Assembly (NCBI GenBank): GCA_026419785.1
Contig: JAODTK010001444.1
Coordinates: 930,001-994,000 of the forward strand
DNA length: 64,000 bases
From: Sclerodactyla briareus
Lineage: Eukaryota > Echinodermata > Holothuroidea > Dendrochirotida > Sclerodactylidae
Direction: 5' to 3'
Shown here: in pieces, positions 6,712-58,945 of the stretch
Layout: the number at the start of each line of letters is the position of its first letter
How positions within the stretch are numbered: position 1 is the stretch's first letter
Notes under the pieces: generated by a model
Database searches by the model: none
Seen by the model: the letters and a program-made list of their open reading frames with translations, nothing else
Told to the model about the DNA's origin: nothing
Program-made: the position numbers and the translations under genes

Positions 6712-8880
6712 AGGATCCTGTAGCTGGGACTCATCTCATGTCTTTAAGTGACTTAGCCAGATCTTCTAGCACCGAGGGCTAGGAATCATCTCATGTAATT
6801 GAGTGACTAGCAGAACTGGGTAGGGACCGAGGCTAGACTCATCATAATGAGTGGGTGAGCTTAGACCAGGAAAATTTCCCGCATGAATGCTAGGGACAGT
6901 CTGTTTCGATACGAGTATCTTGTTCTAAAATTAGAATCATTAGGTCCTTCGGATCTTGAAGAGGCTGAAAACAAGGCGGATCGCCCACAGTGGTTCTGCC
7001 TGGCTGCGCGGATTATTGATTTCTTCCATCAGTCACTATGCACCCAACTAGGCTAGGAACTCATCTCATGTAATTAAGTGACTTAGCTAGAATTATAGCA
7101 CTGAGAGATAGGACTTACTTATGTAGGTAAGGACTCTTAGCCAGAACTTGTAGGACTGAGGGCTGGGACTCCTTTTCCCATATGTAATGACGTGACTTAG
7201 CCAGAACCTGGTAGGAATGAGGGCAGGAACTCATCTTATGTAGTGGGGACTTCAAGCCAGAGAGAACTTGATAGCACTGAGGGTTAGGACTCCACCTCAT
7301 GTAGTTAAGTGACTTGCCACAGATCTTGAGCACTGAGGAATAGGATCGTCCCATGTAGTGGAGTGACTTTAAACCAAAACTTGTAACACTGAGGGCTAGG
7401 AACTCACTATTTTTTTTTGTAGTTAAGTGACTGAGCTAGATCTTGTGAGGGCTAGGACTCATTAAGTGAATCAGCCAGACTTGTAGACTGAGGGCTAGGA
7501 CTCATCCACATGTTAGTATGTGACTTAAACAGAAAACTTGTGTAGACTAGGCTAGGACTCTCTCAGGACTTAAGTGACTTAAACGGAACGTGTAGCACTA
7601 AGGGCTAGGACTCATCTCAGTTACTTAGTGACTTAGCCCAAACTTATAGGACTGAGGGCTTAGGACTCATACTCAGTGTTGAGTAACAGCCAGATCTAGG
7701 AGCCCTGAGGGCTAGGATCATCCCAGTAGTTGAGTGACTTAGCCAGAATTTGTAGCACTGAGGGCTAGGACTCATATCAGGGTAGGTAAGTGACTTAGCT
7801 AGATATGTAGTAGGGGGCTAGGACTCATTAAGTGACCAGCCAGAACTTGAGGACTGAGGGCTAGGACTATTCCCAGTAGTTAAGTGACTTAAACCCTTTA
7901 ACAGAACTGTAGCACTAAAAAGGCTAGGATCATCTCAGTACGTAAGTGACCCAAACCAGAACTTGTAGCACTGAGGGCTAGGACCCACTCATGTAGTTGG
8001 GTGACTTAGCCAGAACTTGTAGCACTGAGGGCTAGGAACTCATCTCATGTAGTTGAGTGACCTAAACAAAACTTGTAGCACTGAGGGCTAGGACTCTCTC
8101 ATGTAGTTTTGTAAGAACTCGCCAGGATCTTGGAGCATCTGAGGGACTAGGCTCATCATGTAGTTGAGTGACTTGAACAGAAACTTGTGTTTAGGCACAA
8201 GGCTAGGAACTTATCTTCATGTACCAGTGGACTTAGCAAAAACACTAGGACGAAGGGCTAGGATCGTCCATGTAGTTGGTGACTTATCCAGACGTATAGA
8301 CTGGAGGGCTAGGACTCACCTCATGTAGTTAAGTACTCAGCCAGCAGATCTGGAGCACTGAGGGCTTGGACTCACCCATGTAGTGCGTGACTTAGCCAGA
8401 ATTGTAGCACTGGGGGCTAGGACTCATTCACGTAGTTAAGTGACTAGCTAGAATCTTGTATAGCAGGGCTAGGACTCATTAAGTGACTCAGCCAGAACTT
8501 GTCAGGACTGGGGCTGGATCATCCCATTTAGTTAAGTGACTTAAACAGAATTGTAGCACTAAGGGATAGGACTCATCTCAGTACTTAGTGAATTAAAACA
8601 GAACTTGTAGCCATAAGGGCTGGACTCATCTCATGTAGTTGGATGACTTAGCCAGAGAACTTGTAGCCACGAGGGCTAGGACTATTCATTGTAGTCTAAG
8701 TTGAGGACTTAAACAAAAACGTGTAACACTGGGGCGAGGACTCATTCATGTAAGTAAGTAAATCAGCCAGATCCTTGGAGGCACTGAGGGCTAGGACTCA
8801 TCCCATGTAGTTGAGTGACTTGAACAGAACTTGTAGCACTGAGGGCTAGGACTCATCTCATGTAGGTAAGTGACTTAAAC
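6712..8880. repeat. ~56-bp minisatellite, roughly 38 copies
   Basis: The recurring unit contains TGTAGCACTGAGGGCTAGGA, CTCATCTCATGTAGTTAAGT and GACTTAGCCAGAACT. Copies differ mainly by one- to three-base deletions, for example a lost C in 'gactcat' or a missing 'atgtagtt'. The array is interrupted at about 6879-7049 by unrelated dispersed-repeat sequence and abuts a different 32-bp array on the right. No reading frame survives across units. Confidence 0.95.
6879..7049 (+). repeat. fragment of dispersed repeat inside the 56-bp array
   Basis: About 170 bp from the CCGCATGAATGCTAGGGA region to CAGTCACTATGCACCCAACT matches 12085-12262 closely and in the same orientation. Shared blocks are CATGAATGCTAGGGA, CTTGTTCTAAAATT, GGTCCTTC, ACAAGGC, ATCGCCC, ATTATTGAT and CAGTCACTATGCA. 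Array units resume immediately afterwards (AGGCTAGGAACTCATCTC). It is either an insertion into the array or an assembly join. Confidence 0.85.
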
Positions 8881-9071
8881 CCACCATTCAAACGATGACT
8901 TGTAATGCAGTCCAACCATTCAATCAAAGACTTGTAATGCAGTCCAACCATTCAATCAAAGACTTTTAATGCAGTTCAACCATTCAATCAAAGACTTGTA
9001 ATGCAGTCCAACCATTCAATCAAAGACTTGTAATGCAGTCCAACCATTCAATCAAAGACTTGTAATGCAGT
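8881..9071. repeat. 32-bp tandem repeat, 6 copies
   Basis: The unit is TCCAACCATTCAATCAAAGA plus CTTGTAATGCAG. The first copy is divergent (CAAACGATGACTTG) and the later ones are almost perfect. The homogeneity contrasts with the degenerate 56-bp array it directly abuts, suggesting a more recent expansion. Confidence 0.95.
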
Positions 9072-18015: not shown

Positions 18016-18986
18016 ACCTGGTAAATCCCAACATGGCCATTGCACAGTTGTCCATTTGCATATTTTTGACCAAAAGGGTGACTCTTGACCATGCACTGTT
18101 TATTCACTATTGGTGGTAGCAGTGATTTACTAGAGAACTGTTTTCTCTTTTTCTTCCTGATAGCTCAACTAATACTGACTAATTCAGAAAACGATTATGG
18201 AGGATAATTCTCCTGACCATTAAACTGTTAGAGGCCCTCCGAGAAACAGCAATTACTCAAGATACCCATAACTGTCATCCTCAATGAGGCCAGCCAATCA
18301 ACACCAACCACTGTAGGACTAGTATTGACAGTAAAACCAGACCTACAGTACACACAGTGATACAACAGGAAAGGTGAAAATTAGGATACTGCAACCATAC
18401 ATGAATAGGAACACCATGAGCCGTGAAGCAGCCTGGGATATGTTTCCATGGAATTGTCTAATGGATTGAACCAGGGCTATTAATAAATTATTGAACTTTG
18501 TACAGCAACATCTCTGCATCCATACATATCTGATATTTGTTTGTGTTATGGAGGAAGTAACGAAGCTCCTCACAGATGGCTGTCACTCCATTCAAATATG
18601 GTAGCGAGTTCACCTCACAGTGTGGAATCTGTCACGTACCACCCAAGGATCAACACACCTTAGGATTTGGGGGCTTCCAAGCAGTAATTAGCAATTTCTT
18701 GTGTGGGCAGTAGAAGGTAATGTATGGGGGGGGGGGGGGGGGGAGGTCTCCATTACACCTGGGTGTGGGGAAGGGAAGGGGTGAGGGGGAAGGGGCAGAG
18801 AAAAGGCAAAAGTGAAGAATGACCGAATCCCCCCCCCCTCTCCACCCTAAATTAGAATCTCCCTTTATGCCTGCACAAACTTGGTATGAGATGTACCAAT
18901 CTGCCATTTAACTCATATTTCATGTTCCTAAGCAAGAATGGGGCTTTACGCCATATTAGAAATGAACCAAAGAATGTAAAACTCAC
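18016..18986 (-). other. sequence downstream of PKC exon, probably intron
   Basis: If the PKC gene continues to the left, this is intron sequence beginning at the GTGAGT donor (18986-18981). It includes an 18-nt G-run (18726-18743) and purine-rich sequence, but no V3-hinge or kinase exon that I can recognise. Confidence 0.5.
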
Positions 18987-19212
18987 ACTAATACAGAGTC
19001 CAGTTATGATGCTGGCATCCTCTCCTATGGCGGGAACATTGTAGAACTCGCCCTCCTCCTGGCTGAGCAACTTGAACCAGCCCTCGACTGGGGACTTCTT
19101 CAGCTCCGATATGCCAAAGGACATGGACCCCATGAAGTCATTACGAGAGGTCCGGTCCCAGTCCCAGACCTCGATCAGTAGACGCCTGTTCTTGTCGCTC
19201 TCCTTCAGTGGG
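18987..19212 (-). CDS. conventional protein kinase C, second C2-domain exon
   Basis: This is an internal exon of a calcium-dependent PKC, a Ser/Thr kinase brought to membranes by Ca2+/phosphatidylserine binding through its C2 domain and by diacylglycerol through C1. The minus-strand frame is intact for 75 codons after one leading base. It contains [55 protein letters not shown]; the DWD and RND residues belong to the Ca2+-binding loop of the C2 family. Residue for residue it is closest to PKC beta from memory of the family. An acceptor CACACAG precedes 19212 (phase 2, completing a TT|C Phe codon) and a consensus GTGAGT donor follows 18987. The last ~12 residues (after NVPA) are not conserved, so the true donor could lie slightly earlier. 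Confidence 0.93.
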
Positions 19213-19709
19213 CTGTGTGAGGAACATTCAAGAAAATTGCAACCATCCCTCACTGCCCCTACAAATATAAATAGCCCCAAAGATATGGGTGATCCATTTT
19301 ATTTTTCATTTGCCATCCATCAACCTTGGAGCTACATTCACCCTCAAAGTTCCCCTATGATATGCAAGCAGACTGCATTTGCCTGGAGACGATGGAGTTA
19401 CCTGCGAGTCCGACAATCAATATCTCTAGGGCGAGAGGGGTGGTTCAGGAGTTGCAGATAGGTGAGCCCCTCCGTAGCAAAACAACACTCGAGAATATTG
19501 CCTGTGACTAGAAGGCTTAAGATACTTCAATTTTCTATAATCAATTGCAGCAACTATACACTTGGCCAAATTCCCTTTGGCACAGAGGGTAATCATGTGC
19601 TAAAGGCACAAATGGGATTTTTGGGGCAATGTCATTAGGCAAAGAACAATTTGGCGCTACATTTCACCTGTATTATATGGTAACTGGTCCACTAGCTGGA
19701 AGATTATTA

Positions 19710-22700
19710 CCAATGTATCAGTGCACTCAACCCCCAACCATGTAGTGAAACCTATCAGAGGTGTCCACTACAAGGTATCAGTGCACTCAACCCTCAACCA
19801 TGTAGTGAAACCTATCAGAGGTGTCCACTACCAAGGTATCAGGGCAATCAACCCCCAACCATGTAGTGAAAACTATCAGAGGTGTCCACTACCAAGGTAT
19901 CAAGGTGGGCACCCAACAACAACCCCCACCAATTAGAAAACCTCTCTCACAGAAGTATCCACTAACAAGGTATCAGTGCACTCCACCCGCAACAATGTAG
20001 TAAAAAACCTATCAAGGTGTCCACTACCAAGGATCAGTGCACTCAACCCCCAACCATTAAGTAAAACCTATCAGATGTGTCCACTACAAGGTATCAGGGC
20101 ACTCACCACCCCCAACCAGTAGTAAAACCCATCAGAGGTGTCCACTACCAAGATCAGGGCACTCAACGCCCCAACCCTGTAGTAAAACCTATCAGAGGCG
20201 TCCACTACCCAAGCATGACCACTCAACCCCCCAAACAATGTAGTGAAACCTATCACAGGTGTCCACTACAGTTCAGTGCACTCAACCACCCCACCCATTT
20301 AGTGAACCTATCAGAGGTGTCCACTACCAAGGTATCAGGGCACTCAAGGACCCCCAACCATGTAATGAATCTTATCAGAGGACAGGAAGTATCCACTACT
20401 AACCAAGTTATCAGAGCACTCAACCCCCACCATGTTAGTAAAACCTATCAGAGGTGTCCACCACCAAGGTATCAGTTCAGCGACTCAACCCCCCAACCCC
20501 CAACCACGTAGTGAAACCTATCAGAGTGTGAACTACCACGGATCAGTTACTCAAACCCCCAACCATGTAGTGAAAAACCTAATCAGAGGTGTCCACTAAC
20601 CAAGTGTATCAGGGCACTCACCTCCCAACCATTAATTGAAATGTAAAAATCTATCAGAGGACAGAAGTACCACACCAATGTATCATGCACTCCCTCAGCG
20701 CCCCAACCATGTCGTGAAACCTATCAGAGGTGAACTACCAAGTATCAGTGCACTCAACACCCCAACCAGGTAGTGAAACTATTAGAGTTGTCCACTACCC
20801 AAAGGTAATCAGGGCCTCAACCCCCACCATGTACTGAAATCATCAGAGGACAGAAGTTCCACTACCAATGTATCAGAGCACCACACCCCAACCCTGTGTC
20901 AAACCTTATCATAGTTGTCACTTACCAAGGTCTCATTGCACTCAACCCCCATCCATTAGGAAACCTATCAAGGTGAGAACTACCAAGGTATCAGTGCGCT
21001 CAACCCCCCAACCATGTAGTGGCAACCTACAAGGTGCCCACTACCAAGGTATCAAGGGATCAGGTCAACTCAACCCCCAACCATGTAATTAAATCTATCA
21101 GGGACCGAAGTATCCCGACTACCAAGGTAATCAGCGCACTCAACCCCCAACCATGTAGTAAAACCTATCAGAGGTGTGAACTACCAAGGTAATCATGCAC
21201 TCAACCCCCAACCATGTATTGAAACCTATCCGACGGTGGTGAACTACCAAGGTATCAATCTAGTCACTGGTCAGGGTTTCCCTCAACCATGTAGTGAAAC
21301 CGACAGAGGGTCCACTACTACCAAGGTAAATCAGTGCACTCAACACCAAAACCATGTAATTGAAACCTATCAGAAGGTGTTCCACTACCAAGGTATCAGG
21401 CACTCAACACCCGAACCTGTAGTGAAACCTATCAAGGTGTCCACACCAAGGTATCAGGGCATTCAACCCCCAACCATGTAGTGAAACCATCAGAAGGTGT
21501 CCACTACTACCAAGGATCAGTGCACGCAAGCCCCCCAACCAGTATGAAAGCTATCGAGGTGTCCACTACTACCAAGTTCATGCACATCACTCCCCAACCA
21601 GTATAAACCTATCAAGGTGTCCACTACACAAGGTAATCAGGGCACGAACCCCCACCATGTGTCGTAAAACTATCGGAGGTGTCCATACCCAGGTTCTTGC
21701 ACTCAACCCCCAACCATGAATGAAACCTATCAAGTGTCCTACTACCAAGGTATCAGTGCACTCAATCCCCAACCATGTAGTGAACCTATCGAGGTGTCTA
21801 CACCAATGGTATCATTGACTCAACTCAAAACCCCCAACCATTAGTACAACCTATCAGAGGTCGCACTACCAAGGTACAGTGCACTCAACCAAAACACCCC
21901 CAACCATGGTAGTGAAACCTTATCAAGGTGTCTCACTACCAAAGTTCATGGCACTCAACACCCAACCATGTAGTAAAACCTATCAGAGGTGTCCACTCCA
22001 ATGTATCGGGGGCACTCAACGCAACCCGCCAACCCTTGTAGTGAAAACTATCAGAGGTGTCCACTACCAAGGTATCCAGGGCCCCCTCAACAAAAACAAA
22101 GCCCCCAAACATTAATGAAATCTATCCAGAGGACAGGAGTATCCACTACCCAAGGTTATCAGAGCACTTCAACGCAAAACCCCCAACCATGTAGTAAAAC
22201 CTATCAGAGGCGTCCACTACCAGGTATCAGTGCACTCCACCCCCCACCATGTAGTGAAAACTATCAAGGGTTTTTTTGGGTGAAACTACCAGTATCAGTG
22301 CCTCACCACCAACCATGTATTGAACCTATCAGGTGTCCACTTTCCAAGGTATCAGTCACTTCACAACCCCCAACCATGTAGTGAAAACTATCAGAGGTGT
22401 CCACTACCAAGGTAATCAGGGCACTCAACCCCCCACCATGTAGTGAAACCTATCATAAGTGTGGACTACCAAGGTATCAGTGCACTCAATCCCCAACCAT
22501 AGTAAAACCTATCAGAGGTGTCAAATACCAAGGTATCAGGGCACTCAACCCCCACCATGTAGTGAAAACTATCGGAGTGTTCCCCACCAAGGTTCAGGGG
22601 CACTCAACCCCCAACCATGGTAATGAAATCTAGCAGAGGACAGGAGTAATCCCTACCAAGGTATCAGATGCACTCAACCCCCAACCATTAGTAAAACTTC

Positions 22701-24510
22701 GAGGTTTCCACTACCAAGGTTCAGGTGCACTCAAAAAACCCCCACTCATGTAGTGAACACCTATCAAGGTTTGACTCCCATGTATCACAGTGCACTCAAC
22801 CCCCAACCATGTAGTGAAACCTATCAGTGTCACTTCCAAGGTTATAGTCCCTCCAACCCGCAACCAGTAGTGAACCGATCAAGGTGCCACTACCAGGTAT
22901 CAGGGCACTCAACCCTCAACCATGTAGTAAAACCTATCAGAGGTGTCCACTCCAAGGTCTCAGTGCAACTCAACCCCCAACCATGTAGTGAACCTATCAG
23001 GTGTCCAATACCACGGTATCATGCACTCAACCCCCAACCATGTTGTGAAACCTATCAGAGGTTCCACTACCACGGTATCAGGGCACTCAAACCCACCCCG
23101 CAACCAGGTAATGAAATCTTATCAAAGGACAGAAGGTAAATCCACTAATACCAGGTATCGAGCACCACCCCCAACCATGTCGTGAAACCTATCAGAGGTT
23201 GAACTACCAAGTAGCAGTGCACTTCAACCCCCAACCATGTAGTGAATATCAGAGGTTTGAACTAACCAAAGTATCTAGTGCCCTCATCCCGCCACCATTT
23301 CTGGAAAGCTAATCGAAGGTTTCCCACTACTAACAAGGTATCAGTGCACTCCACCCCCCACCATGTAGTGACACCTATCAGAGGTGTCCCATACAAGGTA
23401 TCAGAGGCACTCAAAACCCCTAACCATGTAATGAAATCTATCAGAGGACTGGAGTATCACTACAAGGTACAGAGAATCAAAACCCCCAACCATTAGTAAA
23501 ACTATCATAGGTGTCCACTACCAAGGTATCAGGGCAGGGGCACTCAACCCCCAACCATGTAAGTGAAACCTATCGAGGTGTGAACTACCAAGTATCCATG
23601 CACTCAATCAACCCCACTCATTAGTTGAAACCTATCAGGTGGTCTCACACAAGATCAGTGCACTCACCCGCAACCATTGTGTGAACCTATCAGAGGTTGT
23701 CTCACTACCAAGGTACCAGGCACTCAACCCGCAACCATGTATTGAACCGATCAGAGGTTTCCACTACCAAGTATCAAGTGCACTACCCCCAACCATGTAG
23801 TGAAACCTATCAGGTGTCCACACCAAGGTAACAGTGCACTCAACCCCCAACCAGTAGTGAAACTATAGAGGTGTCCATACCAAGTATCGAGGGCACTCAA
23901 AAAGCCCCTAACCATGGTAATGAACTCTAATCAGAGGACAGAAGTTCCACTACCACGGTACAAGCACTCACCACCCCCAACCATGTAGTGAAACCCTAGC
24001 AAGTTTTAACTAACAAGGTATCATGCCTCAACCCCCAACCAGTAGTGAACCTATCAGAGGTGTGACACTACCAAGTAGTCAAGTGCACTCCACCCGCAAC
24101 CATGTGTGAAAGCTATCGAGGTGTCCACTACTTACCAAGGTTATACATGGACTCCCCCAACCATGTAGTGAAACCTTCAGAGGTGTCCTACTACCAAGGT
24201 ATCAGTGCACTCAAACCCCCAACCATGTAGTGGAACCTATCGGAGGTGTCCACTACCAAGGATCAGGGCACTCAACAACCCGAACCAATTTGAAAGCTAT
24301 CAGAGGTGTCCACTACCCAGTATCAGGCACTCATACCCCCCCACCATGTAGTAAAACCTATCCAATGTGTCCATACCAAGGAATCAGGACACTCAACAAC
24401 CCACAACCATGTAGCAAACCTACAGAGGTTGCCACTACCCCGATGTATCAGGGCACTCAACCCACAAAACATAGTGAAATCTATCAGAGTTTGTTTCACT
24501 GAAACTACCT
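19710..24510. repeat. ~61-bp minisatellite, about 78 copies, in PKC intron
   Basis: The unit contains CAGTGCACTCAACCCCCAAC, CATGTAGTGAAACCTATCAG and AGGTGTCCACTACCAAGGTA. A variant with AATGAAATCTATCAGAGGAC recurs at about 20364, 20640, 20835, 21088, 22113, 22621, 23110, 23425 and 23922, giving a higher-order pattern. Copies differ mostly by small deletions. On the transcribed minus strand the unit carries GGTTGGGGGTTGAG, a G-rich word every ~61 nt. Translations of this array look like repetitive Pro/Cys/Tyr proteins but shift frame constantly, so it is not coding. Confidence 0.97.
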
Positions 24511-24545
24511 GTTAGCTACATTAGTAGTTAATTATAAACCGTCCC

Positions 24546-24578
<33 letters not shown>

Positions 24579-24598
24579 ACCCCCCCCCCCCCCCCCCT
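24546..24598. repeat. near-uninterrupted C-run of about 50 nt
   Basis: A run of C with a single A near 24579 directly follows the minisatellite and a short AT spacer. On the PKC-sense strand this is poly-G. Its exact length is unreliable because homopolymers are error-prone in any assembly. Confidence 0.9.
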
Positions 24599-41785: not shown

Positions 41786-43045
41786 CCAATCAGTTAACCA
41801 TACCACAAACGTAATCGGGACTAGCGTGTTAGCCGCTTTCGTGTTCTCGTGGCCAATTCACGGGACGATATAGATGCAAGTGTTAGTATGCCTATCCATT
41901 ATCAATAACTAGTGTATACTACTTGTTGAGAATATTTGCATACATGGGTTCTCTAGTAAAATCAACATGGTCCCCACTATACATCTCTGCATAAACATTA
42001 TAGCACACTTGTGAGTTCGGGACAAGGTAACACTTACAATAGCTATTAATAAGTTCTCTTAATTTTGTCCATCAGAAGTAATGGTATACAGTGATGAAGA
42101 CTGATAGAATAAACTGTTTAAAATTCAACTTGACTCATGAAATATTATCAAACTAATGCAGTGCCCATGAACACATATGAACTGTGAAAAATGTATTCAG
42201 ATGTTTTGATTGTCAGGTGCAATAAGTGGGATATGGAGGGATATGCTCGATGAAATATTTGCCGGTAAACAATTTCATGAGTAGTGGCACGCCACACCCC
42301 GCCATGGCCCAATTTTGCTCATTACTACCGAGAAGAAACACACAAACACTCTATGACAGACAATCATGGGCATGTCGAAGCAGATGACACAGGCGGTGTG
42401 AATACTTGATTAATGAGCTTCAACTGATTTCAGTCAATTAATAATTTTGTTCTCTCCTTCAGATGCAGGCGATTGAAAGTTTTTATCAAAAGCCACTAAT
42501 ATATTCCCATTGATTTTAAGTGAATGCTGGCCGAGGGAGAGGCTCATGATAGCAACAAGGTGTTGAACTTTGGTATTAATAGTGGGCCTTTATCAGATGA
42601 AATGCTCCTCCACACGGGTGAATTCAGTAAAACCATGAGTGGAGGACAAAAAGCCTATAGAAGAGTTCGTGCCCAACTCAAGCGAGTCTCTCATCAAGGG
42701 AACCGAAAGCACTTGTGTAATCATCGGAATGGGATAGTTGATTGTACCCCAGCAGAAGAATGAGAAGTAGTTGTATTGAGTTCCAGTGATAGGGGAAATT
42801 AAACGAACCTACTAGAGCTTGGGCTACTATGGGCAGTTGCAGTTATTATTATAATGTAACTCTTAAGGTTAAAGTAAGACTCTGAAAGTAATTGTTCATT
42901 GATTGACTAGGGGGAATAAATAAAAATTTCACAGTTTTTTGAATACTGGTTTGGTAGATATTAGTTTTCATTAGAGCAATCTTGTTGTTTTTTTACAAAT
43001 TTGTCTCAGGTACTATCTTCGAGAAGAAAAATATTCTGACATTAA
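41786..43045. other. no gene recognised
   Basis: A 79-codon plus-strand open frame at 42524-42763 (HTGEFSKTMSGGQKAYRRVR and more) has ordinary protein-like composition, but no splice sites or family that I recognise. The remainder is AT-rich. Confidence 0.45.
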
Positions 43046-43344
43046 TTCACAAAACTTACTGGTTGTGAATCGTGAACTACGAATAACTTACCCCCCACCC
43101 ATATGACTTTGCACCCCACCCCGCGCTTGAACATCTGGCAATCTTTTACAGTCGTCCGGGCTGGAAACAACCCTATCGTTCTTCTTATCTATTTTTTAGG
43201 CAAGAGGCAAATCCAAGGGAAATGGGGGCGAAGGCCCGCAATCCGACAAAGGAGGACGCCCCGTGATGGCCAGGGAAGTGGGACGGTAGGGTGGGTACGT
43301 AAGTATTCGTAGTTCACAGATTCACAAACAGTACGTTTTGTGAA
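43046..43344. repeat. 46-bp inverted repeat at left edge of GC block
   Basis: Bases 43046-43091 (starting TTCACAAAACTTACTGGTTG) and 43299-43344 (ending GTACGTTTTGTGAA) are reverse complements with only a few mismatches. They enclose 207 bp. Within the enclosed part lies the ~100-bp sequence shared in inverted orientation with 48565-48660. The arrangement resembles a MITE-like element nested in, or forming, the end of a larger one. Confidence 0.85.
43085..43189 (+). repeat. left member of ~100-bp inverted pair
   Basis: It is homologous, in reverse orientation, to 48565-48660. Shared blocks in order are AACTTA, CCCATATG, CTTTGCACCCCACCCCG, CTGGCAATCTTT, GTCCGGG and CAACCCTATCGT, followed by CTT/CTCTTAT. 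A further partial copy in the same orientation (CTTCACTTACTCAAATTACC and on) lies at 43348-43390. Confidence 0.85.
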
Positions 43345-44039
43345 ATATACTTCACTTACTCAAATTACCCATATTGCACTTCTTTGCCCAGACTAAGCAC
43401 AGGGCACTGGAGGCGGGGTCCGTGCTCACGAAACAGGGTTGTTGGTCGGTTTTGTAGATTGCAGAGCAGCCCTAGTGCGGCTAGCGAGACTGTGTGGAGA
43501 AGCAGCATGTGTGAAAATCGAACGTCGTGTGGTAAAGCCCACAGACGCTCGCATACGCCTCGCGAAGAAGCGTTAGCTCGGGAGACGAGAGGGCCGACTG
43601 GTTCGAAGCAGGACCGCGGTGCAATGGGTAGTGCACATTGTGAACCCGGAGAGGAAACCTTGGCTCAGAGATATGCGGCTTGCGAGGGCTCTACATCCCA
43701 CGGAGATGAGAAAGCTTCGATACCGGAGAGAAAAGCTGACCACATAGGAAGAAGAGTTGAGTGCGTTTGACCACGACCTTCGTTTTCCCCCTACCAGTGC
43801 CCGTGTCCGCACCGGACGGCCCAACCTGACGCCTCCAACCGTGGATTAATCCGACGGTGCAGAGTAACCTCTCGCGTGTGAAAACCCGACCCCTGACCGC
43901 CGTGGGTCCGACCCACCTCCTCGAAGAGCTGGAACCTGGCTTCGGCTGTCGAAAGAATAGGTGCGCGGCTGCTACCGCAGGCTGGGAGTGCCAATCTGGC
44001 CCGGGAGGGCCTAAAGAGCCGGATCACGGGTGAGCCCAC

Positions 44040-44900
44040 CCACGCTCGTGAGAGGTCGATCTGGCGCAGGAGGGCGAAGAGTCGGGCCACTGTCTGGAGA
44101 GTCTTCAGCCCCGATCCCTCTGCGCGGTAGGGCCGACATCACACAGGATGGATGGAGAGTCCGCTACGGCTATGGAGCTTCGGAATGAACCAATCCCAGG
44201 GGATCGAGGCTCAGGGGAGCTGGCAGGAAGAGTGGGACCATGCTCTTGAAGAGTCGCAGCCCTCGAACTCGTTCCTCGGCTCGGTAGAGCTGATTCTCCC
44301 CCAGGAGGCGGAATAGTCTGACCAGTGCTCTGTTTATCGTCAGGTCCCTACTCCTCGGCTCGGTCGGGCCGATCTCACACAGGAGGGGGCATGAGATCGG
44401 GCTCCGGGGCTATGCAAGCCCGGGATGAGCGAAGCACTGCACAGGGGAGCTGGCTTCGGATGGCGTGAAGAGTCGGTCGGCGGCTCCAGAGAGACGGGAA
44501 ATTCGAACCGCGGCTCGGGAGGGTCAATCTGGCTCAGGAGAGTCGGAGAAGTGGGATGAAGGCTCCGGAGGTCGGTAGTGCTAACCCTCGGCCCGGGAGC
44601 CCGTCTGGCCCAGGCGGCTGATAGAGTCAGACCACTGAACTGACTAACCGGGAAGCCGAGCCCTCGGCCGGAGAGCCCATCTAAATCAGGAGGGCCGAAT
44701 AAGTCCGACCACAGCTCGAGGTTCGGAAGAGGGTGACACACGGCTCGAGACGACCGACAGAGAACGGTTCACAACGGCTTCTGTAGAGCCTACCCACGGC
44801 TCCTGAGGGCAGACCCGGTTCGGGAAGCCGAAGAGACGTTCACAACACCGCTCTGGAGGGCAGACCCGCTCTTGAGTCTCTATTTAGACCAGTCCCGGCT
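44040..44900. repeat. degenerate ~78-bp tandem repeat in GC block
   Basis: A module of the form GATCTGGCNCAGGAGGGC followed by GAAGAGTCGGGCC, then CGGCTCGG, recurs with heavy drift at about 44059, 44130, 44212, 44291, 44371, 44440, 44526, 44604 and 44679. The spacing is about 70-86 bp. Weaker echoes (GAGGGCAGACCCG twice, 44803 and 44858) extend it to about 44900. Confidence 0.7.
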
Positions 44901-44989
44901 ATGAACACGGAACGCCCCACCTCCGTGGCACTCCGCTGTCCGCGGGGTCAGGCCTAGCCCCCGTCTGTAACAGGGCTTGTCTGAGGGAG

Positions 44990-45321
44990 CACGGCTACCT
45001 CGGGGTATGCCGGTTGCTCCGTAATGGGGCCGACGGTTTGTCTCTCAGCGGACAGGTCGGGGCGGTCGAGCGAACGTGCTGACCTTCAGGGAAAACGTGT
45101 CCCGACGTGAAGGTGATGACTTGCGTTGTATAAGCCATGGGGTCCACGGAGTAGCCGGCAGAGACTGCTGCAGAGATCACGGCTACCACAACCTCGGGGT
45201 GAGCCGGTTTCTCGTACACGGGCCGTATGGTTCTGTCTCTCAGCGGACAGGTCGAGTCGATCGAGCGACAACGTGCTGGCCTTCGGGGAAAGCGCGTGCG
45301 ACTTGAAGGTGATAACGCGCC
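44990..45321. repeat. direct duplication, ~188-bp offset, in GC block
   Basis: 44991-45130 and 45179-45321 share CACGGCTAC, CTCGGGGT, TGTCTCTCAGCGGACAGGTC, TCGAGCGA, AACGTGCTG, CCTTC, GGGAAA and TGAAGGTGAT. About 75-80% of positions agree by eye. Confidence 0.85.
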
Positions 45322-46984
45322 AAGAAAGTATAGTGTCCACGAGTAGAACGCAGAAGAGCGTACCGAAATCCACTCGTCAGATAACGAGGACGCGCGAGAC
45401 TGACTACTAGTCAAGTAACAACAAGGCTAGACGTAGTCAGCCAGCCGAATTCCGGCAGTCCTATGTCGGCCGTTTCCTCCTGTCCGGTGAGTCCCCCCCG
45501 CTATCCTTCAGTAAACTGTCTATGTAGGCGAGCCCTCTAAGCCTCGGCTACGGAGGTAGCGAGAGTGGGCCGGGTAAGAACCCAAGGGAGGTAGCCAACT
45601 GCTCGTCTCTCCCACGGAAGCATTACGCTTGGAAGCCCGACCCTGACCGGAATAACGGCCCCTGGTCCTCGACTGGCAAACGGCTGTACTGTTTTCGCTA
45701 GATAGTGGAGCCTGCAACTCCGCCCCGTTGGCCCTCCGCCCTTGGAGGGGGGGGCAAGCTAGATATGAGTCCAGTGCCTCGAACACCTAGTAGTCTTGCC
45801 AGCATCAGTGGCCTCTTGCCGATCCACCGCTGATCTCTCTTTGGAGAGATACCGACTCTGGCAGGGGTGGCGCCCTGGGCGGCCGCAGCAACCCCGCCGC
45901 TGACCCGAGCGGCTCCCCTGTCTGGCGAGGAGGCTTAGACGGTCCTGACGTAGACTGGTGGTGAATACCTCCTTCCCAGTCGCTCCTCCATGGACCTTAA
46001 TCTTGTTTCTTTTCAGTCCCGCGAATCCGCACTCTTCGAAATATCCCTCGAGGAGGCCCCTCCCGCGTGATGGCTGACTGAAGCCAACTCTACCGAACGG
46101 GCTGGTCACCATGCCCGGTCGATGTCCGCCTGCCACCTTAAGTCCCCCTTAGCTCAAGGTCTGACAGACTGGCCAAGGGATGAGAGGGCCCCACCTAATC
46201 AACGAACGCGATAGAGTCACTTGTCTAGCGACATCGTAGCGGCTGTCCCGAACGTAGTAACGATGTCGGAGAGGACCGAGAACAGTCTCTGGCGATGCGG
46301 GACCTTACCACGTCCCTCGCCGAAAAAAGACCGCCAGCTCTAAGACCTCACTCTCGCCCTAGGTTATCGGGACAACGGCACCCTACCAGGAATGGCTGTC
46401 CATCCGACCCCAACCCCGATGACTACCGGCGGGTAATAACCTCGCCGCTCCTGGGCATAGAACACACGGCTACTGCTCCACTTGAGTCGCATGTGCCGAC
46501 AAGAGAGACTCCCTGCGCTACGGCAGTTTCGGATTGACTGCCTCGTACTCCGGAGACCTCCCGAGCGCATCCGGTAATCGTGGAGCGCTTGTCGCTTCCT
46601 CCCCTCTTTGCCCGGAAAACCCAACACTGGAAGTTCCTGAGGGCGCCGCGCCTAACCTGCCCCTACAAGGAGGCCAGGAGGGTCCAGGAGCGTCAAGCCT
46701 TACGGGCCCCGGAAACGTCCGGCCGCTCTAACTGTCTGAAAAAAACCGGCGAAACTGGTCTGTAACCTCGCCCCGCAGGGCTCGCATCTTGGCTATCCAA
46801 TTTAAACTTCTCTGCCTACCGCTAGCCGAACCGAGGCATAGACGCTTCCTGGAAGATGTTGACCCTGTATGCTGTGGCCTGTAGGGCTTGGAATCGATCC
46901 CCTGGTTCCCTGCGCTGGTCTGATGCCTAGCCGTACCGGCCTGCCGGATCCGCGGCCGTGGGACCGGTCCGCGAACCGCACTCG

Positions 46985-47215
46985 TCGGTAACCCTCCGGT
47001 GCCGTTTCGAGGTTAACCACACCCCGTCGGACCCGCTTGGCCGTCCGGCCCCGACCTTGCTTTTCGGGACCCCTCCGGGCCGTCCCGAGGTGTAACGACA
47101 CCCCCCCCCGTTTTCGGGCCGCGGCCGGGCCCGACTCTCTGTCGGGACCTCCGGGCCTTTTCGAGGTGTAACGGACCCCCGTTCGGGTCGGCGCCGAGGG
47201 ACGGACCCCAGAGCC
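46985..47215. repeat. ~77-bp repeat, three units, in GC block
   Basis: GGTAACCCTCCGGTGCCGTT, GGGACCCCTCCGGGCCGT and GGGACCTCCGGGCCTTTT start successive units at about 46987, 47068 and 47142. Each is followed by CGAGGTGTAACGRACMCC-like text and a TTCGGG/CGGCC-rich segment. The period is close to that of the 44.0-44.9 kb array although the sequence differs. Confidence 0.7.
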
Positions 47216-47549
47216 GCCTCCTCGACACTGCGATGAGCCACCTCAGCCCGCCCCGCCGGCTTTAGGGTCATGCTGACCCATAGCTCTATGCCTGTGGGAC
47301 TTACAAACGGTGCTAACGACCCCTTGCCCACGTCCCCCGGAAGGGGCCCAGCTCGGGAACGTCCTCTTCTTCGAGCGCCGTCATCTCACTGGGTCCTTCC
47401 TGCCGTCGGTAGGATTCTTCGTAGACAATGCGGTCGCCTCCAGCTTTCCTCGTCCCAGGTAGCGAATGCCGGAAGGTCCGGTCAGCCGCCACACCCTTCC
47501 CGTATCTGAGTACAGTCCCCCTCTTAACGGAACATATCCTTCAGGAGTA

Positions 47550-47995
47550 TACCTCCTCCCGAACGATATACAATAACAATATCACAATAGGAACACTTCC
47601 GACCTGATTTGTGATATGTCATAATACAGTGTATTGCCGTATAATATTAATACAAAATAAACACAGCCGATAACGCACGGTATACCATATAATTCCCCAA
47701 TAGGACCATTTCCGACGTGATTCGATATGTCATAATACTAGTGTTCTGTATACATAACTATACAATACAAATATCGCCGATAACACTATCACAAATAGGA
47801 CTCACTTCCGCCTGATAACGAAATGTCATAGTACGAGTGTATTGCAAGTATAAGAATATACAACATACAAACATCACCGATAACGAACGGTATACAATAC
47901 AATATCACAATAAAGGAATCACTTCCTACATGATAGCGAAATGTCATAAAACCGTAGTGTCTTTGCAGTAATAGACGAGACAAATACAAGTAATC
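47550..47995. repeat. AT-rich ~110-bp tandem repeat, four units
   Basis: Units begin at about 47555, 47667, 47770 and 47877. They contain CCGATAACGNACGGTATAC, ATCACAATAGGANNCACTTCC, TGATNNCGAAATGTCATAAT, GTGTATTGCAGTATA and CAATACAAA. The repeat lies between the GC block and the right-hand inverted sequence. Confidence 0.85.
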
Positions 47996-48564
47996 GGGCC
48001 GGTAACGAACTCACGAAAGACGAGTTAACTTAGACTCCTATCCAAGTTTTAACGAACAAAGTATCTCCCCTTCCCCCCTCTCACCGTTTGTGGTAACATT
48101 CCCCTAGCGCCGCGCGCGAGAGACAAACCCCCCGGGAGAAAGGGGACGGTAGAGAAGGTGAAACCCCCCAGGAAGGGAGGGAGGCAGGGAGGGGGTGGAG
48201 GGATGGGGGGGACTCAGCTAGGAAAGCACCGGACAACAGTCCAGCCCTACTGATCCTAACACAATAAGAGCCCACACACCCCTGTGTTAGGCTACTGGGC
48301 AGCCATGCACAGCCCTATGTGCTAGGAGCAGCCTAGGCTAAATATGAGTTTTTGTTTTTTTCTTACGCAAACGGTATCGAGCAGGGAAAAAAATCCAACC
48401 ATATTATGCAAACCGCTAAGGAACATACCTGATAGACGACGTCGAAGAAAATGCTCCGAGCGATGCGACTTTCGATTGAAAGCAGATGGGTGATTTTTCG
48501 GCGATGAAAAATCGATGAAATTCTTCAGCCAAGTGCTCATGAACTTAAAACGTTTAACTGGCAA

Positions 48565-48660
48565 AATAAGAGGACGATAGGGTTGCCACCCGGACTACTT
48601 AAAGATTGCCAGCTGTCGAATGGCGTCGGGGTGGGGTGCAAAGTGCATATGGGTTAAGTT
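48565..48660 (-). repeat. right member of ~100-bp inverted pair
   Basis: On the plus strand it reads AGGACGATAGGGTTGCCACC, then CGGACTACTT, GATTGCCAG, GGGGTGGGGTGCAAAG and CATATGGGTTAAGTT. It is the reverse complement, with mismatches and small gaps, of 43085-43189. The end word AGGGTTGCC(A) resembles ends of several cut-and-paste DNA transposons, which would imply that the terminus faces away from the GC block. Confidence 0.85.
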
Positions 48661-48671
48661 GAGTAAGTGAA

Positions 48672-48718
48672 ATAGATTGTGGTATTACAGCAGGTGGGGG
48701 ACACCATACCACAATCTA
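48672..48718. repeat. 14-bp perfect hairpin next to right inverted sequence
   Basis: ATAGATTGTGGTAT (48672-48685) pairs with ATACCACAATCTAT (48705-48718) across a 19-nt loop. A second, smaller hairpin (CCTAACACA/TGTGTTAGG) is at 48255-48291. Confidence 0.9.
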
Positions 48719-48720
48719 TA

Positions 48721-50277
48721 GGTTGTGATGGGCTTTGAGTGATTGATAGATTAAAAAAAAAAAATATGTGCCGAGGGGCGTCGAACTAGAGCCCTCTCTT
48801 GAGTCACCCGTCATATCAGGTTAAAATCCACCAGGCAATGGACGAATCCAACCCATCCCTCATCGCTATCGAGGTGTACAGGTCTATTTACACTACTTGT
48901 GGTGGGAGCTGCGGCCTCATGGACAATGTGGAGGTCCTTCGGAGGGGGTCAAATTGTTTCGCATAATTCAGGCGAATTTTCCATCGGGTTCAGAAACCCC
49001 CCCTCCCAATGACCCTTATGATCAATTATTTTTCTTCTGAGTTTTGCGCTGTTTTTTACAGCAAATATGTACAGCAAGGGTCTAGAGCCCATAAATTGGT
49101 GCCTTGTTTGCCAATCGGGAGGGTGAGGCCCTGATGAGGGCGCACCTCCCTCGGAATTCCGACCTCAAAAGCGTTTCATCAAACCATTCAATCATTCATC
49201 ATCATCATCAATCAACCCCCCCCCCATGACAAATCTGTGTACGCTATATACTGTCCATCACTAAGGACATGACTGAGTGTGTCATGGGAAATGAAAAATG
49301 CTCAAAGTTAGTTCAATTTGGGACATGAATCAGACATCCGAATTACTACTACTACTAACTCTGGAGTCAGAGTTTGTACTACTCATTATACTGGATCACT
49401 TCATCCTTGGAGTTGACTGTTTCAACAAAAGGTCCATACCAACTTTACAGACCATACTGGATATTTTCAGTCAATAGCACCACATAGCTAACCAATGATA
49501 TAGCCTATTGTACAACAGTGATAAGTGTCAAAGCAACCTTTTCAGGAACCAATGAAAATATAAATGACATTTTGCCGGTATTATGCTCTCTGATTGGCAA
49601 TAGAATGACCCTTATCCTAGTAAGGCACTTAAAAGAAATCTGTAAGTGTGAATACGGTTATAAGAGCTTGCCAATACTCATTTTTCTAATTCAGCATGTG
49701 TTCAAATTTGTGAGCGAACTCTCTGACACGTTTTTATTTCGTTTGATGTATGGATGCAAGATCATTGTCGCCGATAGGGGTGTTAAAAACCTAGCCCCAA
49801 TATGGCTTATCACAGAAGTCGCTGAACGAGAACGGACATTTAATCATTGTCCCCAATGAGGGCTGCTATCAACAGCCATGACAAGGCACTAATCAATAAA
49901 AGTTTGCTCACATAAAGTCGGTGTACTACTATACATAGAACAATGAGATTTTGGGGGGGCTATAGTACACTCAAGAGCAATGTTTACAAGGCCATATCTT
50001 TTTGGGGGAGGGTGGGAGAGGGACAAATCCTTGTTATCACAGAGCAGTAGGCCACCATTATCTGGCCGGTAGTGCATAGGAAATTTGAAGAATCATAGAA
50101 CACCTTCCCCCAGCTGCCAAAAAGAGATTTGCGCTGAATCCTCCCTCACTTGCACAACTGTGTCTGGCCACACTCATGATGAGAACAGAGTGGCTGTCAT
50201 CTTGGTGAAAAAGAAAATTAGGCATGGCTCCAGTGCCTAGCCTATCTTCTCCTACAACAATCCGAATTCCCCCCCCC
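48721..50277. other. no gene recognised; possible tRNA-like motif
   Basis: On the minus strand around 48775-48850, AGTTCGACGCC resembles a pol III B box, but no A box is clear and an A-run borders it at 48753-48764, so a degenerate SINE is possible. A 113-codon plus-strand open frame at 49518-49859 has no recognised similarity. TCATCATCATCA is a short microsatellite near 49195-49210. Confidence 0.45.
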
Positions 50278-54100: not shown

Positions 54101-54608
54101 TGCGTCATACTAACTGTGTCATGTCCATATATTGTTACCTATATGGCAGAGCAAATACTTGATGAATTATCACCCATACGCTTGATCCTTTCTGATTCTT
54201 CTGCATAGAAACTATTCAAGAAATGGGGACATGCCCCCACCCACTCCTAATATGCAAACCACCACTCTTGTGCAAGGGTACATCAGACTCCAACTTTGAG
54301 AGAATTAGACCCATTCACATTGGTGTAGCAAAATTTGTTGAATGTTTTTTTTTTTTGGCTTAATTGGGATATCATGTAATATCATTAACAAGTGATGAGG
54401 CAATTCAATTGAAGTGGGTCCATTGCATGGGAAAATCCACCCTGTTGAGACAGACTTCTGGTCGGTGTGAATGATTCTTTTTTGTGAAGGGTCAGTATAA
54501 ATCATTACTGATATTTCACCAAATCATCATTAATCATTCAATACATTAGACAATGATTGTGCTTTGATTCCCAGGGCGGACTCCGCAATACAGATTAGGC
54601 AGATTTCT
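51141..54608. other. no gene recognised
   Basis: A 73-codon plus-strand frame at 52140-52361 (SGRFLTKYQSVTQAESDENK and more) is protein-like at its start but resembles no known family and has no partner exon. T-runs occur near 51808 and 54341. Otherwise AT-rich and featureless. Confidence 0.45.
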
Positions 54609-57600
54609 AGCGGGGACACCGAGATAGATACCTAGTTGAGACACCTAGTGAGGCACCTGGTAGATCAGTGGAGGCACCTGGGTAGATAGATAGTGGAGAC
54701 ACCTAGGTAGATACCTAGTCGAGACACCTAGTGAAGGCACTGGTAGATCAGTGGAGGCACCTGGGTAGATAGCTAGTGGAGACACCTAGGTAGATACCTA
54801 GTCGAGACACCTAGTGAAGGCACTGGTAGATCAGTGGAGGCACCTGGGTAGATAGCTAGTGGAGAAACCTAGGTAGATACCTAGTCGAGACACCTAGTGA
54901 AGGCACCTGGTAGATCAGTGAGGCACCTGGGTAGATAGCTAGTGGAGACACCGAGGTAGATACCTAGTCGAGACACCTAGTGAAGGCCACCTGGTAGATC
55001 AGTGGAGGCACCTGGGTAGATAGCTAGTGGAGACACCGAGATAAATACCTAGTTGAGACACCTAGTGAGGCACCTGGTAGATCAGTGGAGGCACCTGGGT
55101 AGATAGATAGTGGAGACACCTAGGAAGATACCTAGTCAAGACATCTAGTGAAGGCACCTGGTAGATCAGTGGAGGCACCAGGGTAGATAGCTAGTGGAGA
55201 CACCTAGGTAGATACCTAGTTGAGACACCTAGTGAAGGCACCTGGTAGATCAGTGGAGGCACCTGGGTAGATAGCTAGTGGAGACACCGAGATAGATACC
55301 TAGTGAGACACCTATGAAGGCACCTGGTAATCAGTGGAGGCACCTGGGTAGATAGCTAGTGGAGACACATAGGTAGATACCTAGTCGAGACACCTAGTGA
55401 AGGCACCTGGTAGATCAGTGGAGCACCTGGGTAGATAGCTAGTGAGACACCTAGTGAAGGCAACCTGGTAGATAGCTAGTGGAGACACATAGGTAGATAC
55501 CTAGTCGAGACACCTAGTGAGGCACCTGGTAGATCAGTGGAGGCACATGGGTAGATAGCTAGTGGAGACACCTAGTAGATACCTAGTTGAGACACCTAGT
55601 GAAGGCACTGGTAGATCAGTGGAGCACCTGGGTAGATAGCTAGTGGAGACACCGAGATAGATACCTAGTTGAGACACCTAGTGAGGCACCTGGTAGATCA
55701 GTGGAGCACCTGGGTAGATAGCTCGTGGAGACACCTAGGTAGATACCTAGTCGAGACACCTAGTGAAGGCACCTGGTAGATCAGTGGAGGCACATGGGTA
55801 GATAGCTAGTGGAGACACTAGGTAGATACCTAGTCGAGACACCTAGTGAAGGCCACCTGGTAGATCAGTGGAGGCACCTGGTAGATAGCTAGTGGAGACA
55901 CCTAGGTAGATACCTAGTCGAGACACCTAGTGAAGGCACCTGGTAGATCAGTGGAGGCACCTGGTAGATAGCTAGTGGAGACACCTAGGTAGATACTAGT
56001 CGAGACACCTAGTGAAGGCCACCTGGTAGATCAGTGGAGGCACCTGGGTAGTAGCTAGTGGAGACACCGAGATAAATACCTAGTTGAGACACCTAGTGAG
56101 GCACCTGGTAGATCAGTGGAGGCACATGGGTAGATAGCTAGTGGAGACACCTAGGAAGATACCTAGTCAAGACATCTAGTGAAGGCACCTGGTAGATCAG
56201 TGAAGGCACCTGGTAGATCAGTGGAGGCACCTGGGTAGATAGCTAGTGGAGACACCGAGATAGATACCTAGTGAGACACCTAGTGAGGCACCTGGTAGAT
56301 CAGTGAAGGCACCTGGTAGATCAGTGGAGGCACCGGGGTAGATAGCTAGTGGAGACACCGAGATAGATACCTAGTTGAGGACACCTAGTGAAGGCACCTG
56401 GTAGATAGCTAGTGGAGACACCTAGGTAGATACCTAGTGGAGACACCTAGGTAGATACCTAGTCGAGACACTAGTGAAGGCACCTGTAGATCAGTGGAGG
56501 CACTGGTAGATAGCTAGTGGAGAAACCTAGGTAGATACCTAGTCAAGACACCTAGTGAAGGCACCTGGTAGATCAGTGGAGCACCTGGGTAGATAGCTAG
56601 TGGAGAAACCTAGGTAGATACCTAGTCGAGACACTAGTGAAGGCACCTGGTTAGATCAGTGGAGGCACCTGGGTAATAGCTAGTGGAGACACCTAGGTAG
56701 ATACCTAGTGGAGACACCTAGTGAAGGCACCTGGTAATCAGTGGAGGCACCTGGGTAGATAGCTAGTGGAGACACCGAGATAAATACCTAGTTGAGACAC
56801 CTAGTGAAGGCACCTGGTAGATCAGGGAGGCACCTGGGTAGTAGCTAGTGGAGACACCTAGGTAGATACTAGTCGAGACACCTAGTGAAGGCACTGGTAG
56901 ATCAGTGAAGGCACCTGGTAGATAGGGAGGCACATGGGTAGATAGCTAGTGGAGACACATAGGTAGATACCTAGTTGAGACACCTAGTGAAGGCACCTGT
57001 AGATCAGTGGAGCACCTGGGTAGATAGCTAGTGGAGACACCTAGGTAGATACCTAGTCGAGACACTAGTGAAGGCACCTGGTAGATCATGGAGGCACCTG
57101 GGTAGATAGCTAGTGGAGAAACCTAGGTAGATACCTAGTGGAGACACCTAGGTAGATACCTAGTGGAGACACCTAGGTAGATACCTAGTGGAGACACCTA
57201 GGTAGATACCTAGTGGAGACACCGAGATAAATACCTAGTTGAGACAACCTATTGAAGGCACCTGGTAATCAGTGGAGGCACATGGGTAGATAGCTAGTGG
57301 AGACCACCTAGGTAGATACCTAGTCAAGACACCTAGTGAAGGCACCTGGTAGATCAGTGGAGCACCTGGGTAGATAGCTAGTGGAGACACCTAGGTAGAT
57401 ACCTAGTTGAGACACTAGTGAAGGCACCTGGTAGATCAGTGGAAGGCACCTGGGTAGTAGCTAGTGGAGACACCGAGATAGATACCTAGTTGAGACACCT
57501 AGTGAAGGCAACCTGGTAGATCAGTGGAGGCACCTGGGTAGATAGCTAGTGGAGACACCTAGGTAGATACCTATTCGAGACACCTAGTGAAGGCAACCTG

Positions 57601-58945
57601 GTAGATCAGTGGAGGCACCTGGTAGATAGCTAGTGGAGACACCTAGGTAGATACCTAGTCAAGACACCTAGTGAAGGCAACCTGGTAGATCAGTGGAGGC
57701 ACCTGGGTAGATAGCTAGTGGAGACACCTAGGTAGATACCTAGTTGAGACACCTAGTGAAGGCACCTGGTAGATCAGTGGAGGCACATGGGTAGATAGCT
57801 AGTGGAGACACCGAGATAGATACCTAGTGAGACACCTAGTGAAGGCCACCTGGTAGATCAGTGGAGGCACCGGGGTAGATAGCTAGTGGAGACACCTAGG
57901 TAGATTCCTAGTCGAGACACCTAGTGAAGGCACCTGGTAATCAGTGGAGGCACCTGGGTAGATAGCTCGTGGAGACACCTAGGTCGATACCTAGTCGAGA
58001 CACCTAGTGAAGGCACCTGGTAATCAGTGGAGGCACATGGGTAGATAGCTAGTGGAGACCACCTAGGTAGATACCTAGTCGAGACAACCTAGTGAAGGCA
58101 CCTGGTAGATCGTGGAGGCACATGGGTAGATAGCTAGTGGAGACACCGAGATAAATACCTAGTTGAGACACCTAGTGAGGCACCTGGTAGATCAGTGGAG
58201 GCAACCTGGTAGATAGCTAGTGGAGAAACCTAGGTAGATACCTAGTCAAGACATCTAGTGAAGGCACCTGGTAGATCAGTGAAGGCACCTGGTTAGATCA
58301 GTGGAGGCACATGGGTAGATAGCTAGTGGAGAAACCTAGGTAGATACCTAGTTGAGACACCTAGTGAAGGCACCTGGTAGATCAGTGGAGGCACCGGGGT
58401 AGATAGCTAGTGGAGAAACCTAGGTAGATACCTAGTTGAGACACCTAGTGAAGGCACCTGGTAGATCAGTGGAGCACCTGGGTAGATAGCTAGTGGAGAC
58501 ACCTAGGTAGATACTAGTTGAGACTCCTAGTGAGGGCACCTGGTAGATCAGTGGAGGCACATGGGTAGATAGCTAGTGGAGACACCTAGGTAGATACCTA
58601 GTCGAGACACCTAGTGAAGGCACCTGGTAGATCAGTGAAGGCACCTGGTAGATCAGTGGAGGCACATGGGTAGATAGCTAGTGGAGACACCTAGTAGAGG
58701 CACCAGACCTGGATAGAGACTTAGTGAAGATCCTCGGTAGATACCAAGTGGAGACACCTAGTAGAGCACCTTGATAGATACCTAATGGGAACACGTCGTT
58801 GTAGTCACCTAGTAGAGGCACATGGGTAGCTACCGTGTGAAGATGGGTAGCTACCTAGTGAAGATACCTAGGTAGATACCAAGTGGAGACACCTAGTAGA
58901 GCACCTAGTAAAAAAAAACTAGGAAAACTAGGTAAAAATCTAGTG
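54609..58945. repeat. 84-bp minisatellite, about 50 copies
   Basis: The consensus unit runs GTAGATAGCTAGTGGAGACA, CCTAGGTAGATACCTAGTCG, AGACACCTAGTGAAGGCACC, TGGTAGATCAGTGGAGGCAC, CTGG. It is itself built of four related ~21-bp sub-units (GTAGAT..TAGTGGAGACACC). A variant containing CACCGAGATA recurs at intervals close to multiples of 84 bp (about 54618, 55035, 55288, 55651, 56068, 56256, 56358, 56772, 57212, 57471, 57808 and 58145), giving a higher-order structure. Units shorten into fragments at the right edge (58690-58945). TAG density leaves no long frame. Confidence 0.97.

Follow-up and report, generated by a model that had tools for sequence, protein, structure and literature searches.

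We report that a GC- and CpG-rich block at positions 43046–48720 of a 64-kb stretch of DNA (the 64-kb window, meaning the whole stretch analysed) probably consists of two adjoining non-autonomous DNA transposons of a single family, a 301-bp unit resembling a miniature inverted-repeat transposable element (MITE) and a 5.3-kb element with a CpG-rich cargo. Among the origins proposed in a preliminary description of this DNA, a large non-autonomous transposon-like element fits best, because the change in composition meets inverted ends that match far above chance and because a foldback unit at the left edge shares end sequence with the block. The same description also spoke of a sequence "captured between two inverted mobile ends", which comes close to our reading but is better recast as one long element neighboured by a MITE-like unit that belongs to its family. 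Judged from the sequence, the simplest arrangement would place a small unit at 43045–43345 beside a long one at 43350–48672.

The abrupt rise in GC and CpG content within AT-rich DNA, noted in that description, is clear in windowed counts. GC fractions are 0.519–0.627 in the five 1-kb windows of 43001–48000 and 0.491 in 48001–49000, compared with 0.336–0.481 in 55 background 1-kb windows, a set that excludes the six windows of 43001–49000 and a minisatellite at 55001–58000 (GC 0.504–0.507 in 1-kb windows). At 250-bp resolution, GC is 0.56–0.71 across 43501–47500. The observed/expected (o/e) ratio of CpG is 0.63–1.56 in the 23 250-bp windows of 43001–48750, against 0.389 for bases 1–42000, while the TpG+CpA o/e ratio is 0.56–1.27 in these windows and reaches 1.18 or more in seven of nine flanking 250-bp windows. 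GC is uneven within the block, falling to only 36–38% at 47501–48000, yet CpG o/e there is 1.37–1.56; since this AT-rich array is also high in CpG, the CpG content of the block is not merely an effect of its GC content. The shift in GC and CpG begins and ends at the inverted ends of the block. As a whole, the block is unusual, though precedents for it are known.

Directly after the block lies another CpG-richer stretch (48750–49230; CpG o/e 0.81 in the first and 0.57 in the second window of 48751–49250). It has a run of A on its left edge, and a tRNA-like 3' end can be made out by eye on the minus strand. This is possibly a short interspersed element inserted beside the block; ARAGORN found no tRNA.

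The features that define the two proposed elements and their ends are as follows.

43045–43345, no strand assigned: MITE-like foldback unit of 301 bp, with inverted arms of about 57 bp, a loop that contains the 92 bp recurring in the right end of the block, and TA on both sides by eye.
43350–48672, no strand assigned: candidate non-autonomous transposon of 5323 bp, framed by TA at putative borders, with inverted outer ends.
43097–43188, plus strand: subterminal sequence, inverted match to 48566–48654 (alignment, shuffles, BLAST).
48566–48654, minus strand: right subterminal sequence, inverted copy of 43097–43188 (alignment, shuffles, BLAST).
43344–43381, plus strand: left terminus of the long element (alignment, shuffles).
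48641–48678, minus strand: right terminus of the long element (alignment, shuffles).
48672–48719, no strand assigned: hairpin across the right border with a perfect 14-bp stem (z −6.81, none of 200 shuffles as good).

To assess the end pairs, we compared local alignment scores with those of 500 dinucleotide shuffles for each pair. The longer inverted pair, 43097–43188 and 48566–48654, matches in 80 of 96 columns, with 5 substitutions and 11 gap columns (BLAST E 1e-14), and the second, 43344–43381 and 48641–48678, in 34 of 39. Terminal inverted repeats are therefore present at the borders of the block, with scores of 99 and 49 against shuffle maxima of 31 and 27, respectively. The inverted pair of about 100 bp that had been placed at 43085–43189 and 48565–48660 was thus real, with coordinates good to about 12 bases, as were the additional hairpins described at both edges. 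On the left, the arms of the foldback (43043–43100 and 43289–43347) match in 52 of 60 columns (score 74, shuffle maximum 28), and the unit at 43045–43345 folds with a z score of −7.21 that none of 100 shuffles equalled; on the right, all 14 positions of the stem 48672–48685/48706–48719 pair. Hairpins occur at three positions in the ends, with z scores of −4.22, −3.24 (equalled by two of 200 shuffles) and −6.81, and the folds of 48565–48660 (z −1.43) and 47072–47190 (z −1.92) are unremarkable. Read from outside to inside, the right end of the block comprises a part shared with 43344–43381 followed by a part that recurs in the foldback loop. Both shared parts lie in this one end, so the ends of the foldback unit are related to those of the long block.

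Between these ends, the block carries several kinds of degenerate repeat around a GC-rich core:

43975–44858, no strand assigned: array of 11 degenerate units, each about 78 bp, located with a seed put together by eye (pooled match 0.425, shuffled-unit maximum 0.255).
44997–45316, no strand assigned: repeat of 194–197 bp in two copies (BLAST E 1.4e-25; 146 of 193 columns; autocorrelation).
45450–46900, no strand assigned: GC-rich core with no detected repeats or coding signal.
46985–47216, no strand assigned: about three units of 76–79 bp (pooled match 0.540, shuffled-unit maximum 0.421).
47560–47989, no strand assigned: AT-rich, CpG-dense array of four units of 104–114 bp (pooled match 0.608, shuffled-unit maximum 0.325).

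Tandem Repeats Finder lists no array within 43046–48720, because the repeat copies are too dissimilar. We assessed the repeats by 6-mer autocorrelation in eight segments, each with 30 dinucleotide shuffles, and by unit alignments controlled with 20 sets of shuffled units per array; this latter control backs the repeat claim. Offsets above the shuffle maximum were 75 and 234 bp in 43600–44950, 196 bp in 44900–45450, 75 bp in 46880–47250, and 114, 211 and 327 bp in 47540–48050, with none in the other four segments (43380–43900, 45450–46900, 47250–47540 and 48050–48560). Of the tandem repeats of 78, 188, 77 and 110 bp that had been described, the kinds thus exist (at about 75–78, 195, 77 and 105–114 bp), but their units are few and degenerate, and the "188-bp" repeat has a true length of 194–197 bp and just two copies. 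These two copies differ by 30 substitutions and 17 gaps; across the three arrays, the pairs of substitution and gap fractions are 0.459 and 0.116, 0.242 and 0.149, and 0.402 and 0.059, so that substitutions outnumber gaps in each. The arrays are old and degenerate, not fresh satellite, and the earlier suggestion of a satellite seed finds no support, the longest array having about 11 recognisable, strongly diverged units.

The block is apparently non-coding, as far as its sequence can tell. Rfam recognised no family (rRNA, snRNA) at gathering score in the whole 64-kb window, and no rRNA was found in 42000–50000 at E values up to 1. Two sub-threshold RNA matches were dismissed: MIAT_exon5_2 in 42000–50000 (E 0.87; 19.1 bits against a gathering score of 75) and SCARNA6 at 49310–49392, outside the block (E 0.093; 17.6 bits against 68). 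We scanned all 44 stop-to-stop open reading frames (ORFs) of at least 60 amino acids overlapping 43340–48560 against Pfam; none gave a match above cut-off and 43 had no family at all at E ≤ 1, the remaining match, to Bclt (E 0.15; 12.3 bits against a cut-off of 25), being dismissed. In the period-3 power analysis, none of 58 windows in the block exceeded the 99th percentile of the 64-kb window and four exceeded its 95th, about the level expected by chance; an exon elsewhere in the 64-kb window (described below) did exceed the 99th percentile. The Rfam, tRNA, Pfam and period-3 checks thus agree with the earlier remark that no protein domain or rRNA is recognisable here.

The pattern of differences bears on age. 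Whereas the ends differ mostly by insertions and deletions (indels), as the 5 substitutions and 11 gap columns indicate, the cargo repeats differ mostly by substitutions, which makes the arrays of the cargo seem older than the ends. Few substitutions in the ends, many in the cargo, and intact CpGs in CpG-depleted surroundings together fit a recent element that carries older, CpG-protected sequence, which suggests a recent insertion of older material. Under this reading, a transposase supplied from elsewhere, acting in trans, would bind the shared end sequence, cut both ends and insert the element, perhaps at TA. The cargo would derive from a locus that is unmethylated or homogenised, a ribosomal DNA (rDNA) spacer for instance, or would have long formed the interior of this family's elements. 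In either case it would be a recent arrival; CpG decay has not eroded the segment. A narrower version, contained within the reading favoured above and in our view doubtful, is that a non-autonomous family packages several kb of ribosomal-spacer DNA, with its distinct arrays and perhaps an RNA polymerase I (Pol I) regulatory region, and spreads undecayed CpGs into ordinary chromosome arms beside its own MITEs, independently of the known element Pokey and on a larger scale.

Several observations weigh against the pair of transposons. The left end of the long element consists of the outer 38 bp only (34 of 39 columns), without the 92-bp part, and the end sequence has no further match in the 64 kb at the score used, all three ends lying within the block. 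A search for target-site duplication found no direct repeat of at least 6 bp joining the outer flanks (43000–43048 against 48676–48760); TA adjoins each proposed border, which, being just 2 bp and seen by eye, is weak evidence. No transposase, of the piggyBac type or otherwise, was found among the ORFs of the block, where frameshifts arising from sequence noise could hide one. Such noise is also a concern for the ends themselves, as indel-rich differences appear in one of three host comparisons: a 61-bp array at 19708–24489 (4.8 kb) shows 11.7% indels and 4.7% substitutions against its own unit, compared with 3.7% and 2.9%, respectively, in an 83-bp array at 54607–58704 (4.1 kb). We read the indel excess of the 61-bp array as uncorrected long-read noise. 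Since noise of this kind could explain the indel-dominated differences between the ends, neither the borders of the ends nor the argument on age is secure, and small differences and broken frames may be sequencing errors.

Four other explanations have to be weighed. Spacers of rDNA are GC- and CpG-rich, non-coding and built of serial sub-repeats, and the block, with its unrelated sub-repeats of 75–200 bp and a repeat-free stretch, could be a piece of host intergenic or external transcribed spacer displaced by repair or ectopic exchange, the inverted mobile copies at its edges being coincidental or resident in the spacer. We consider this unlikely: the inverted ends coincide with the borders of the block, and the sub-repeats are strongly diverged, whereas spacer repeats are often homogenised. 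The rRNA searches given above also count against it, although the lack of adjoining 18S or 28S by Rfam has to be read knowing that an internal piece of spacer would lack rRNA too. Somewhat less probable is a single compound foldback element at 43045–48719, its left end enlarged by an inverted duplication, in place of two neighbours. Hairpins at all three end positions would suit it, as would the fact that foldback families such as Tetris have ends in common with MITEs (PMC4079207). Against it, the sequence furthest to the left does not match the one furthest to the right, and the inverted ends contain no tandem repeats.

It is very improbable that the block is a resident CpG island that has persistently stayed unmethylated, such as a promoter region of the protein kinase C (PKC) gene that has an exon at 19 kb. 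CpG is kept here without an excess of TpG and CpA, and the minus-strand exon lies at lower coordinates, so the block could be upstream of it. The borders, however, coincide with inverted repeats, CpG retention extends over the AT-rich array at 47.5–48.0 kb, and no coding signal was detected; persistently unmethylated resident sequence would fit the divergence of the cargo and its intact CpGs, but not the low divergence of the ends. Least probable of all is a misassembly or contamination joined to host DNA. The indel-rich 61-bp array does suggest uncorrected long-read sequence in the 64-kb window, but a chance join would not put matching inverted sequences at both edges. A bacterial or vector origin, raised in the preliminary description as a check, found no backing in limited tests: the interior of the block had no blastn match among 72,556 plasmid records, viral contigs held no exact match for the end pattern or a 21-base repeat motif, and bacterial and archaeal contigs held none for the 21-base motif. 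As these plasmid, viral and prokaryotic collections are not animal genomes, only some forms of contamination are thereby excluded. The pair of related transposons remains the most likely reading.

The surrounding DNA gives some host context. The host is an animal, since the exon mentioned above, at 18852–19298 on the minus strand, encodes part of the C2 domain of a conventional PKC (PDB match to PKC beta, E 8.4e-29). No other piece of a gene was recognised in the ORFs scanned against Pfam, 10 and a further 39, and the exon may resemble invertebrate forms. A motif search for further PKC exons returned the C2 match alone, six weak C1-like matches being judged by eye to be chance. The 83-bp array at 54607–58704 has a GC fraction of 0.48–0.51 and a strong strand skew, and the 61-bp array is followed closely by a 55-base, near-pure run of C (24543–24597; 92% matches). 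A degenerate array of 54–56 bp at 7462–8878 and a near-perfect 32-bp array at 8883–9071 (95% matches) stand back to back.

Among known systems, the nearest that we found in the literature are described in papers on Pokey and on foldback elements, a result that does not prove an element like this one to be unpublished. Pokey, a member of the piggyBac superfamily in Daphnia, is described as containing repeats of about 200 bp that derive from the rDNA spacer and as having MITE relatives (mPok) that share the family's site; Pokey itself encodes a transposase and inserts at TTAA, and the TTAA beside another copy is where 23% of mPok copies and 7% of Pokey copies are located (PMC3849761). Pokey and the block are alike in being DNA-transposon-like and in having MITE relatives, the small unit adjoining the long element here as mPok adjoins other copies. 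They differ in that we found no transposase and no TTAA at the border of the block, and in that an rDNA origin is only a candidate for its cargo. We tried and rejected membership of the piggyBac/Pokey group: at the right end a TTAA adjoins CCCATATG, yet the inverted match to 43344–43381 extends outward beyond it, and the left copies of the end read ATTACCC and CACCC with no TTAA at the border. A piggyBac transposase is absent by Pfam, but a non-autonomous derivative would lack it too. Tetris/DAIBAM of Drosophila virilis has repeats of about 220 bp within its inverted ends (PMC4079207), whereas the block has its repeats in the middle and none in its ends. Assignment to the foldback class (FB/TU/Tetris) was likewise rejected, since its long ends are built of tandem repeats, while those of the block span about 40–100 bp with no array reported.

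MITEs share ends with longer relatives; here, the loop of the small unit contains the 92 bp that the right end also carries (80 of 96 columns). Animal rDNA spacers and the block are alike in GC and CpG richness, in serial sub-repeats of about 75–200 bp and in being non-coding, but the block differs in having inverted ends, strongly diverged sub-repeats and no adjoining rRNA. If the cargo is rDNA spacer, the block would add a further case, on a larger scale, of Pol I spacer sequence carried by a DNA transposon, and it would become testable whether transposons spread rDNA regulatory arrays and exchange them with the rDNA locus. If it is not, a cargo of this size with its CpGs preserved would still be unusual for a non-autonomous element, here one that lies next to a MITE-like member of its family, and could be used to set the dates of insertions against CpG decay. 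In outline the block resembles both the Pokey and the foldback systems, and we file it under neither.

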